Below, piece by piece: positions 3,989-8,572 of a stretch of DNA of 13,474 bases. The notes beneath the pieces are model-generated. The model searched no databases, was not told where the DNA came from, and was given only the letters and a program-made list of their open reading frames with translations. How positions within the stretch are numbered: position 1 is the first letter of the stretch; the number at the start of each line of letters is the position of its first letter. Position numbers and translations under genes: made by a program. This stretch comes from Tannerellaceae bacterium (GTDB lineage Bacteria; Bacteroidota; Bacteroidia; Bacteroidales; Tannerellaceae): positions 1 to 13,474 of the forward strand of contig JAITAD010000001.1 in assembly GCA_031284275.1 (NCBI GenBank). The letters are read 5' to 3'.

Positions 3989-4555
3989 TCAGGGGCGATC
4001 GCTTTCGAAGTCTTCGCCCATATCGTCGGGGAGGTCGAAACCATCGGTATCAAGCTCGTCGGCATTAAAACCGGCATCACCATAGAAATCTTCATCCAGA
4101 ACGGTTTCCACAGGCACGACGGGCACCTTGCCTTCAAACTCTTTGAAGTCTATTTGTTGGGGGGGCGCTTCTCCAGCAGAGAGAGAAACGAAAGGACGGA
4201 AAAGTTCCTTGCGGGTAATGATTTCGCACAACTCCATAAAAAAAGAGCGCTCGGTCATATAATCAAAGACGAAGAGGAGTTTCTGCCGCTCTTCGGTGAG
4301 GAACTCGTCGAGGTTGGTATCCTCCATCACGAAAGTATCTTCTTCCGATGAGGTATCCATTTCAATAAGCGTAATCTCCGCTCCTTTGTTCCAATCATCG
4401 TCACAAAGGAAGAAAGAAGACATCTGCCCCTTTACATAACCCACAGCTTCAAGAATACAATCGTGCAAGTCGAGGAACGTGGCACGGGAAGATATTTGAA
4501 TCTCCCGCCGGAACCGATCATTTTCATCCGAAAGCAAAAGGAACCTGTATACCAT
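3989..4555 (-). CDS. Plasmid pRiA4b ORF-3-like domain protein with acidic tail
   Basis: A 188-residue cytoplasmic protein. The N-terminal part resembles the pRiA4b ORF-3-like family (PF07929): MVYRFLLLSDE at the start, ISSRATFLDLHDCILEAVGY (residues 21-40), then a SSFFLCDDDWNKG strand-turn and TNLDEFLTEERQKLLFVFDY. The family was first seen on a plasmid and near mobile elements, but in Bacteroidales chromosomes it is often an ordinary gene, and no transposon ends are seen here. The last 35 residues (about 153-188) are strongly acidic. The molecular role is unknown. It sits four bases upstream of miaA and 38 bases downstream of the Big_2 reading frame; I found no clear promoter in those 38 bases. 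Confidence 0.78.
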   Translation of the reverse strand: MVYRFLLLSDENDRFRREIQISSRATFLDLHDCILEAVGYVKGQMSSFFLCDDDWNKGAEITLIEMDTSSEEDTFVMEDTNLDEFLTEERQKLLFVFDYMTERSFFMELCEIITRKELFRPFVSLSAGEAPPQQIDFKEFEGKVPVVPVETVLDEDFYGDAGFNADELDTDGFDLPDDMGEDFESDRP

Positions 4556-4593: not shown

Positions 4594-6333
4594 TTACCTG
4601 ACCACAACCTTATATACGGCTTGCCGGGGGCCTCCGAAAGAACGGATGACGTAGATGCCGACGGGAAGATAGAGGGGGCGAGATTCATCGTCGCCGGAGG
4701 GGATAAAGGCAGCTTTCACCTGTCCGGCAAGGGATGTGACGAGGATATTGTGGCCGGCAAGACCTTTGACGAAGAGCTTACCGAAACGATAGTCGATGGA
4801 GGCAGCTTTTGTCATCGGAACGTCGATGGATGTCGCTTGCACAGACACGATACATTGAGCCTTGACGCCATCGGACGAGATAGCGCTTATCGCAGCGGTA
4901 CCAAGGCTGTAAGTAGTGACGACACCTCTATTGTTTACATTGGCGACGTAAGGATTGTCAGTGTGCCACGTAGCAGATTGTCCGGTAGCATTGATCAGAG
5001 GAATGGTAAAATCCTCACCCGGCGACATTACCTTGTAATTTTCTACGAAGTAAAAAGACAAACCCGCAGTAGACTCGATGACGGTAACCCGACAAGTATC
5101 CGCCCGAGCACCCGTAGAGGCGATCACTTTGGCTTGGCCGGCACCAACGGCGGTCACCAATCCTGTTTTATCAACGACAACGACGGATGGATCGGATGTA
5201 GACCAGAGAACATCGTCGTGCGCCGAGATGGGGACAAACGAAACGGAAAGGGGAAAGGACGTTTCTTTTTGCAGAGTGAGGCTTTGTGCATCCATTCGGA
5301 TAACGGATGCACCGACCTGTACCTCACACGTATCCGACAATCCCGTGGATGTGGAAACGATGAGTAATGCCGTGCCTAAAGCCGAAGCCGTAAAGCGTCC
5401 ATCCGGACGGACTGCCACAACGGCAGGATTCTTGCTGATCCAATTCAGTTTAACCTCGGAAACATCATCGGGGAATAAAGCGACAGGGACATCGAAAATA
5501 TCGCCTAAGCCGACCGGCAACGATTCCGGCACTTCAACACGAGCAGCAGGATTGAAAACCCGCACGGTAATAGAGTCGGACAGGATAGCATCGGGGGCTT
5601 GTTGCACATAAACGCGAATGACGGCCGTTCCTTCTCCGACGGCATAAATACTGTCGTCGGAAACGACGGCGACGGTGGGGTCGGAAACGGAGTAAGTCAC
5701 ACTCAGCTCGCTTTCATTTTCAGCCTCAGGTTCAAGAAGGAGTTTGAAACCGTAACTGTGTCCCCGTTCCAACGGTTCGTCGGGGAAGAGGGGCAATAAG
5801 TCTATGGAAGCGGGTACGATGTAGACCTCATGAGTGGCGAAAACCTTTTCGTTAGCACGAAGACGTGCCGTAACGGTGAGATGGCCGACACGCCCTCGGG
5901 TTAATAAAACGCCGGAAAGGCTGTCAATGGTTGCTATGGTAGTATCCGACACCGACCACACGAGATGGGCATCGGGGAGGGTGGCGGGGAGGACATCCGT
6001 ACGAAACCGCGCACTACTCAACAGGGGAACGGTATGCGGATTGACGGCCTTGAAACGAACTTGCGCGACGTAAACGCGGCAGGTGGAAGAAAGCGATTGT
6101 TTGTTCACTATGGAAGAAACGGTGACCGTTGCGTCACTGGGGACATTGGCGGCGGTAAGGTCACCTGTTTGTGCATCGACGGTAACGATATCGGTACGTG
6201 AACTTGTCCAAGAGGTTTCCCCTTGTTTACTCTCGTCCGAGAACTTGGCTTGCAACTGCAACTGCTCGCCGAAAGACAGGATGGGTGCTCCTCCACCGGC
6301 AACAGATATCGACAGCGGGGCGCTGGTGATCAT
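4594..6333 (-). CDS. C-terminal half of split surface protein: Big_2 Ig-like repeats plus T9SS sorting domain
   Basis: About 579 residues from ATG 6333 (a TTG at 6339 is also possible). It consists of about six Ig-like Big_2 (BspA/intimin-type) units of roughly 80-90 residues, each with the pattern of a Trp in the second third (TSWTSS, LVWSVSD, LNWISKNP, VLWSTSDPS, ATWHTDNP), a V-A-V-V/TVD stretch and a closing T/S-C-x-V-x-V strand. The final 75 residues match a T9SS type A sorting domain: FGKLFVKGLAGHNILVTSLAG, then LPVGIYVIRSFGG and VYKVVVR at the end. As an independent gene it would lack a signal peptide, and the frame is open without interruption up to the TAG at 6379, so I read it as the distal half of the gene starting at 8010. 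Confidence 0.8.
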   Translation of the reverse strand: MITSAPLSISVAGGGAPILSFGEQLQLQAKFSDESKQGETSWTSSRTDIVTVDAQTGDLTAANVPSDATVTVSSIVNKQSLSSTCRVYVAQVRFKAVNPHTVPLLSSARFRTDVLPATLPDAHLVWSVSDTTIATIDSLSGVLLTRGRVGHLTVTARLRANEKVFATHEVYIVPASIDLLPLFPDEPLERGHSYGFKLLLEPEAENESELSVTYSVSDPTVAVVSDDSIYAVGEGTAVIRVYVQQAPDAILSDSITVRVFNPAARVEVPESLPVGLGDIFDVPVALFPDDVSEVKLNWISKNPAVVAVRPDGRFTASALGTALLIVSTSTGLSDTCEVQVGASVIRMDAQSLTLQKETSFPLSVSFVPISAHDDVLWSTSDPSVVVVDKTGLVTAVGAGQAKVIASTGARADTCRVTVIESTAGLSFYFVENYKVMSPGEDFTIPLINATGQSATWHTDNPYVANVNNRGVVTTYSLGTAAISAISSDGVKAQCIVSVQATSIDVPMTKAASIDYRFGKLFVKGLAGHNILVTSLAGQVKAAFIPSGDDESRPLYLPVGIYVIRSFGGPRQAVYKVVVR

Positions 6334-6378
6334 TTGCAACTTGTTGATATCCCCTTCCGGAATCCACTCAAAACGTAC

Positions 6379-6381
6379 CTA
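6379..6381 (-). other. In-frame amber codon splitting the surface protein gene
   Basis: Minus strand reads TCC GAA TAG GTA CGT. The frame is open on both sides for 543 codons upstream and about 594 downstream. The base after TAG is G, not the C favoured by known read-through contexts, and no hairpin was noticed directly after it. Confidence 0.9.
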
Positions 6382-8010
6382 TTCGGAAGAGCTGAGGAGA
6401 TGGCCATTCACGGTATGACGGAAGTAGCTGAGCGGAGGGCGACTGTACTCTTTCGTGGTGAGGATAGTACGTTCGCCCACCTTAAACATGGGGAAGTTGA
6501 TAACGAAAGAGTCGATAATCGACAATTCCGATAGCGACAGCCCCGTGAAGATACCCGTAGTTTCATCGTATTCATCCCATAGAGAGGGGGAGAAGGTGAC
6601 ATTGTCCATAATGACTTTTCCGGTAGGGGTAAAGGTGCCGTCCAACTTGAGATCACCCTGAAAAGTCACTTCGCCATCAATCGAAACGGGGCTGTAAAAG
6701 GTGGCATTCGTAATCTTGGCGCCTTGCCAATTCCCTTCGGCTTGTTTCATGATGGTCAGCCCATCAACGGCGATATTCTGTATATCAATTTGCAAAGGGA
6801 TATCCCAATTGTAGTCGAAGACAAGAACGTCGCCGTTGTCGGACGGCGCTATCGAGAGCCGGCTCTCGCCGCCTCGAGGTTCTTCGCCCCATCTCTCCGT
6901 ACCGTCGTAACCTCCCATGAGGGCTACATATTCGCTTTCAAAATACTGTCGGTCGGCCATGTGGTGGCCTTCCATGAAGAAAAAGCGGTCATCGCGCCCC
7001 TCGCGCAGGCCGACAGCTTCGCCAAAGTCGATATAGGCGGTTTCCCATGAACGGCCATCGCCTTCCTGCGTACCATCGTCAGGACGGATATAGGATGAAA
7101 CTATTGATTGGACGTCCAACAGTGTACCGTCAAATGTCTCCGAACTTTCGTTCAGCACGGTAAAGTGAATGGAAACGGCTCCTTTCAAGGAACTACAACC
7201 TTTGAATGCTCTGTTTCCTATCCGCACAAGGACATTCGGATCTATCCGTATGCCTTCCAACGCTTCACAACCTTCAAAAGCGCCGAACGTTCCCTTCAAC
7301 CCCTGCTCATACCCACCGATACTCCTGACGTGGGAGAGGTCTACCTTCTCTGCACACCACCCTGTACATCCGGCAAAAGCTCCTCCTCCGATGGAGGTGA
7401 TACTCTTGGGTAACAACACAGACTTTAAGCCAGAACAGCCATTGAATGAACCGGCACCGATGTGCGTAAGCTTACTGTCGACGGGTATATCCAAAGCTTC
7501 CAACCCCGAACAGCCGTAAAAAGCGCCTTTGTGGTCGATAGCATCTTCGAGGATGGTCACCGAAGAAGGGATATCCAACGTGCCCGTCAGCCCTGCACAT
7601 CCGGCAAAAGCGGCGACGCCAATATGTTTCAAACCGGCAGGAAGATAGAGCTGCCCCTTAATATTTGTACCGATAAAAACGCTATCGCCGATCTTTTCCG
7701 CGAAAAAGGGGAGAACAATGGTAGATAAACTGGTCATGCCATAACATGCCTTATCCGGCAAAAGGCCATTGTCAAGCGTTGCGTCCTGCAAGTCCAAAGC
7801 GAGCAGCTTCCCGGCTGTCTTACGGATATAATCAAAGTCCGCAACGCCCACCTTTCCGCTGACCTTCAACTCGGTGATATCTGCCAACTTGGAAGGCGTC
7901 ACTTGTTGCGATAACGTACCCGAAGCCGCCAAGGTATAATGCTCGGACTTTACCTCATGGGCATTCGCAAGGAATAGCCCGATGAGTACAAGTAAAAACG
8001 CTTTCTTCAT
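6379..8010 (-). CDS. N-terminal half of split surface protein: BspA-like leucine-rich repeat protein
   Basis: 543 residues. Signal peptide MKKAFLLVLIGLFLANA (1-17). Residues 40-75 resemble the usual BspA N-terminus (ITELKVSGKV, LLALDLQDATL). LRR_5/BspA-type repeats follow to about residue 270, with landmarks AFAGCAGL, AFYGCSGLEALDIP, SFNGCSGLKSVLLPKSIT, AFAGCTGW, AFEGCEALEGI and AFKGCSSLKG. Next is a DGRSWETAYIDFGEAV segment, like the start of Pmp-type or other right-handed beta-helix surface domains, and a region of short beta strands up to the TAG. Surface adhesin or ligand-binding role by family. Start 8010 is chosen over 8028 because it gives a clean signal peptide and AAAGAGG lies about nine bases upstream. 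As read it ends without a sorting domain. Confidence 0.82.
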   Translation of the reverse strand: MKKAFLLVLIGLFLANAHEVKSEHYTLAASGTLSQQVTPSKLADITELKVSGKVGVADFDYIRKTAGKLLALDLQDATLDNGLLPDKACYGMTSLSTIVLPFFAEKIGDSVFIGTNIKGQLYLPAGLKHIGVAAFAGCAGLTGTLDIPSSVTILEDAIDHKGAFYGCSGLEALDIPVDSKLTHIGAGSFNGCSGLKSVLLPKSITSIGGGAFAGCTGWCAEKVDLSHVRSIGGYEQGLKGTFGAFEGCEALEGIRIDPNVLVRIGNRAFKGCSSLKGAVSIHFTVLNESSETFDGTLLDVQSIVSSYIRPDDGTQEGDGRSWETAYIDFGEAVGLREGRDDRFFFMEGHHMADRQYFESEYVALMGGYDGTERWGEEPRGGESRLSIAPSDNGDVLVFDYNWDIPLQIDIQNIAVDGLTIMKQAEGNWQGAKITNATFYSPVSIDGEVTFQGDLKLDGTFTPTGKVIMDNVTFSPSLWDEYDETTGIFTGLSLSELSIIDSFVINFPMFKVGERTILTTKEYSRPPLSYFRHTVNGHLLSSSE

Positions 8011-8044
8011 ATAAACCGCCTCTTTCATGGTACTTTACGAGGGG

Positions 8045-8078: not shown

Positions 8079-8105
8079 GAGAGCGCCCCATTTTGGGACG
8101 CCCTC
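8079..8105 (-). terminator. Hairpin terminator after rplI
   Basis: On the minus-strand RNA, GAGGGCGUCCC pairs with GGGGCGCUCUC around an AAAAU loop: eleven pairs, two of them G-U. On the plus strand the same two positions become A-C mismatches, so the structure is strand-biased to the rplI transcript. No clear U-tract follows (CUUGUGUUUGG), so it may be a processed 3' end as well as a terminator. Confidence 0.6.
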
Positions 8106-8128: not shown

Positions 8129-8572
8129 CTATTCGGATACTACGACGAAAGGTATTTCTACGGAAACTTCACGGTGCAAGTGGGCTACCGCTTTGTAAGT
8201 GCCTATCTGCTTGACTGTGTCGTCGATATGGATAAGCTTGCGATCTACTTCAATACCCTGCTTGGCCAGAGCGGCAGCTATCTGCACATTCCCGACGGAA
8301 CCGAAGATGGTCCCGGACTCGCTCGTCTTGGCGCCAATAGTGAGCGATACGCCTTCCAACTTGGCAGCCAACGCTTGGGCGACCGCCTTGATACCGGCCA
8401 GCTTGTGGGCACGCTGTTTTTGGTTTTCCGCCAACACCTTACGGGCTGCTTCCGAGGCAATTACCGCCTTACGTTGCGGAATGAGGTAATTACGGCCATA
8501 ACCGTCCCTCACCGTCACGATGTCGTCTTTGTAACCCAGCTTGGAGATATCCTCCTTCAATATGATTTGCAT
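8129..8572 (-). CDS. rplI: 50S ribosomal protein L9
   Basis: 147 residues, normal length. Binds 23S rRNA through its N-terminal domain and extends away from the L1 side of the 50S subunit. Seen: MQIILKEDISKLGYKDDIV, then VRDGYGRNYLIPQRKAV, the L9 signature region, a charged connecting helix (residues 40-75) and the C-terminal domain with TSESGTIFGSVGNVQIAAAL. The glycine usual after Leu-Ile-Pro-x is Arg here. Third gene of rpsF-rpsR-rplI, 18 bases after rpsR. It ends in TAG, which shows amber is a true stop in this genome. Confidence 0.97.
   Translation of the reverse strand: MQIILKEDISKLGYKDDIVTVRDGYGRNYLIPQRKAVIASEAARKVLAENQKQRAHKLAGIKAVAQALAAKLEGVSLTIGAKTSESGTIFGSVGNVQIAAALAKQGIEVDRKLIHIDDTVKQIGTYKAVAHLHREVSVEIPFVVVSE

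Follow-up and report, generated by a model that had tools for sequence, protein, structure and literature searches.

An in-frame TAG in a BspA-type surface-protein gene of a Tannerellaceae bacterium: probably a recent nonsense allele

A gene for a BspA-type leucine-rich-repeat (LRR) surface protein in an uncultured Tannerellaceae bacterium is divided by one in-frame TAG codon. The most likely reading, to which a probability of about 0.6 is given, is a recent nonsense mutation in this one gene, with loss of display of its product. The original prediction had listed this possibility, and it is supported by the five recovered orthologues, all uninterrupted, and by a back half of the gene that has not decayed further. 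The sequence analysed, hereafter the window, is one metagenome contig of 13,474 bases. A base-call error in it ranks next; there is little behind switching, recoding or a functional short form.

A surface-protein frame divided by TAG

On the minus strand the gene opens with ATG at 8028 and reaches TAG at 6381-6379 after 549 codons. Downstream of TAG the same frame continues unshifted, stays open for 594 codons and ends at TAA 4596-4594. The original prediction of an in-frame TAG (6379..6381) splitting an unshifted surface-protein frame is confirmed in both coordinates and reading, and its count of 1,138 codons is consistent with a start at the second ATG.

The front half (6379..8028, minus strand) has a signal-peptide-like start, a BspA-type LRR region (PF13306 LRR_5 repeats, 113.5 bits against a gathering cut-off of 27.7) and about 250 aa that contain no named domain, and ends in TAG. 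The back half (4594..6378, minus strand) contains Big_2 Ig-like domains (117.6 bits, cut-off 22.8) and a C-terminal domain, with TAA at its end. LRR_5 and Big_2 are both also present in the sister genome's gene, L001, and in four further orthologues (P0236-P0239), and the orthologue group is made largely of known parts. The 250 aa just before TAG matched nothing in Pfam (E 1) or NCBIfam (E 10), and of 17 sequence-related entries with solved structures, none covers this middle region in its best stretch. The same stretch (6382-7131, minus strand) aligns well across the orthologues. A literature search of titles and abstract beginnings returned nothing on this gene and no name for the orthologue group.

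The last 79 aa (4597..4833, minus strand) are predicted with good confidence to form a seven-strand beta structure resembling the C-terminal domains of type IX secretion system (T9SS) cargo. The first Foldseek match was the RgpB C-terminal domain (E 2.3e-3), and in a second Foldseek look other T9SS cargo domains were near the top, below DUF3244 proteins. Scores for TIGR04183 are below its 23-bit cut-off throughout: 13.9 in the window, 22.3 in the L001 piece and 17.5-19.2 in the five full-length orthologues, where the matches end at the C-terminus or one residue before it. The gene product combines BspA-type LRR and Big_2 domains and probably ends in a T9SS C-terminal domain.

According to an excerpt of PMC5445135, T9SS cargo bears a signal peptide at the N-terminus as well as a C-terminal domain. 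In all five orthologues the N-terminal start and the C-terminal domain are on one polypeptide; in the window allele TAG puts the signal-peptide-like start and the predicted C-terminal domain on different polypeptides. The same excerpt presents Tannerella forsythia BspA as a leucine-rich surface protein and T9SS cargo. The window protein resembles it in its BspA-type LRR region, in the family Tannerellaceae and in a T9SS-type C-terminal domain (predicted in the window). The likeness is one of features, not of aligned sequence, and the window protein differs in its unnamed 250-aa middle region and in TAG.

Relatives carry the gene as one frame

By sprA, the nearest relative of the window among the best 80 of 349 relatives is a Tannerellaceae metagenome-assembled genome (MAG), in which the locus L001 lies (89% protein identity; the next relative has 72%). 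This genome is the termite-gut MAG Roe453_bin44. Roe453 is a sample of the termite Roisinitermes ebogoensis, as stated in an excerpt of PMC11707648, where another bin of that sample is named. We infer that the window itself also comes from an insect gut.

At L001 one frame of 1158 codons, located between rplI and a PRiA4_ORF3-domain gene, aligned to both window halves with 57% identity to the front and 54% to the back. The gene order rplI, surface gene, PRiA4_ORF3 gene, miaA is common to the window and L001; in the window rplI (ribosomal protein L9; 8129..8572, minus strand) is the upstream neighbour and itself ends in TAG, and the PRiA4_ORF3-domain gene (3989..4555, minus strand) lies downstream. 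The L001 gene is like that of the window in locus, in its similar length and in its LRR_5 and Big_2 domains, but it is one unbroken frame.

A protein search was run with an intact relative and the two window halves as separate rows of the query (7,993 candidates scored). Among the best 120 of 1,448 matches it recovered five full-length orthologues (P0235-P0239) of 1132-1150 aa, all single open frames, with 49-72% identity to the window halves. P0235 is the L001 gene and was seen as DNA; P0236-P0239 were seen as proteins only. The nearest, P0238, shares 71% identity with the front half and 64% with the back half. After these five, the matches listed drop to general LRR proteins. In a search of 123 Tannerellaceae genomes (at most six candidates scored per genome; the genus search covered one genome), one, that of L001, had a match with an E value of 1e-60 or lower.

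The full-length search favours intact proteins by design, and the searches with each half alone (about 8,000 candidates scored each, best 120 rows at most) therefore carry weight. Among the matches listed, these found no orthologous half-genes except the window's own: for the front half the next match had 33% identity over 51% of the query, and for the back half 27% over 84%. Judged by sequence comparison, the two halves belong to a single gene, in which the stop is the derived state, because the full-length orthologues are single-frame and one of them is at the same locus. The original prediction would have been overturned by relatives that always encode two separate genes; 5/5 full-length orthologues are single frames. 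Two separate genes are rejected in view of these single proteins and the lack of orthologous half-genes among the matches listed.

The stop might also be a tolerated shortening, in which the front half alone is functional and nothing is lost. TAG does lie downstream of the entire LRR region and of the 250-aa stretch that has no named domain. However, a protein ending there is without the probable C-terminal sorting domain that the cargo rule (excerpt of PMC5445135) calls for, none of the five orthologues ends at this point, and no separate front-half orthologue is among the matches listed. The fold model of P0238 has a mean pLDDT of 51.7 and only about 35-45 at the stop site; it is too poor there for the place of the stop relative to domain boundaries to be told, and so cannot place the stop between domains. 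A functional short form is unlikely.

TAG is a stop codon in this lineage

TAG is a normal stop here. Both the window and the sister genome use it to close rplI, at the same residue, and the sister genome also uses it to close sprA. The anticodon CUA is absent from the 30 scanned of the 33 tRNA loci in the sister genome; no tRNA was found in the window. Were TAG decoded as a sense codon, through recoding or a suppressor tRNA, a full-length protein would result; the open frame before and after TAG, with similar divergence in the two parts, would fit this. The use of TAG in rplI and sprA and the 30 tRNA loci scanned stand against it, and it is very improbable. An alternative code or suppression is accordingly rejected, and the preferred reading remains a nonsense mutation.

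Age of the interruption and the possibility of an error

Over its 1782 bases the back half is free of any additional stop or shift. This places a 95% bound on neutral change since TAG of about 0.018-0.07 substitutions per site, assuming that the back half has been unselected since then; the range reflects the assumed indel share and transition bias. Against L001, dN is 0.318 in the front half and 0.337 in the back half, and third positions are the most changed. Synonymous sites are saturated in this comparison (pS 0.79 and 0.71), and dN/dS against L001 is therefore unusable.

Private changes were counted in the window and P0238 with three outgroups. The back half has 43 in the window versus 21 in P0238 (chi2 7.6) and the front half 25 versus 16 (chi2 2.0). 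The excess in the back half, taken alone, is nominally significant against equal rates, but the two halves do not differ significantly in their excess (Fisher p 0.54). The back-half excess could fit a relaxation of selection older than the age bound. Old decay of the gene is disfavoured, as the back half is without further damage and both halves diverged alike. The earlier argument that intact flanks speak against old decay agrees with a back half that has acquired no additional stops or shifts.

The next most likely explanation, which is possible though clearly less probable than the nonsense allele, is a base-call or assembly error in the metagenome contig, the organism's own gene being intact. 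The interrupted sequence comes from one 13,474-base contig, and each half is represented by a single member sequence on a single contig. All five full-length orthologues are intact and the gene has no other stop or shift, as would be expected of an error. A contig error would look identical to a mutation, because there is a single copy of the interrupted sequence in the data searched. Against this, each of the window's 12 remaining genes gave a single continuous alignment with the sister genome (sprA is cut by the contig end). The contig is therefore not generally error-rich, although it may still carry a lone stop-making error.

Search for a switch element at the stop

Phase variation occurs in some surface proteins of other bacteria, and the original prediction had considered the stop as an on/off state of a surface protein. 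Two imperfect inverted pairs span TAG (16-18 nt, 78-81%, spacing 1.3-1.7 kb), which would suit an invertible element, but at this length and identity they may be due to chance. Within 500 bases of TAG there are no direct repeats of at least 12 bases, no di- or trinucleotide run of at least four copies and no homopolymer of more than five bases. Two tandem rows were found in the whole gene region, both weak and neither at TAG. All five orthologues are uninterrupted, and none of the rows listed for three genomes (profile matches) has an internal stop. The on/off state is unsupported, without direct repeats, slippage runs or a tandem array at TAG, and a switchable protein is a very improbable explanation. 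A promoter scan found 4 sites versus 3.2 expected.

Consequences for the protein

Under the preferred reading, a recent nonsense change would have placed TAG in the middle of the gene of a protein that is probably a T9SS cargo. Translation would terminate at TAG. The front half would be exported by Sec and, without a C-terminal sorting domain, would stay in the periplasm or be degraded. The first candidate restart codons past TAG are TTG at 6339 and ATG at 6333 (6331..6339, minus strand), and inspection by eye revealed no signal peptide after either of them. A back half made by restart would thus be expected to remain inside the cell. The net effect would probably be that this single protein is no longer displayed on the surface, either in one strain or as a population polymorphism.

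Nonsense alleles and recent pseudogenes occur in bacterial surface-protein genes. These present the same picture of a single stop in a gene that is otherwise intact and has intact relatives, and nothing was found that sets the window's allele apart from them. Caution is warranted, as a lone stop in one metagenome contig with intact relatives has the look of either recent loss or sequencing error. The case is most likely an ordinary one, a loss-of-function mutation or a sequencing error.

A broader idea, highly speculative, is that insect-gut Tannerellaceae possess a large set of giant LRR/Ig proteins, single members of which are silenced by nonsense mutations and kept as standing polymorphism in the gut population. 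If true, standing nonsense polymorphism in giant LRR/Ig proteins would be a slow form of surface diversity.

Neighbouring and related sequences

The last three codons, TAG included, are identical in rplI (8129-8137) and the front half (6379-6387), both on the minus strand; this is probably a coincidence. Between rplI and the surface gene there is a terminator-like hairpin of 12 pairs (8079-8105, minus strand), which suggests that the two genes are transcribed separately. The sister genome (G001, 1.6 Mb) contains 59 matches to the profile of the surface protein, mostly to its LRR and Ig-like parts. The open frames that hold them reach 7655 codons (for example on contigs C17, C29, C42 and C43), and for a small genome this is a large repertoire of long surface-type proteins.
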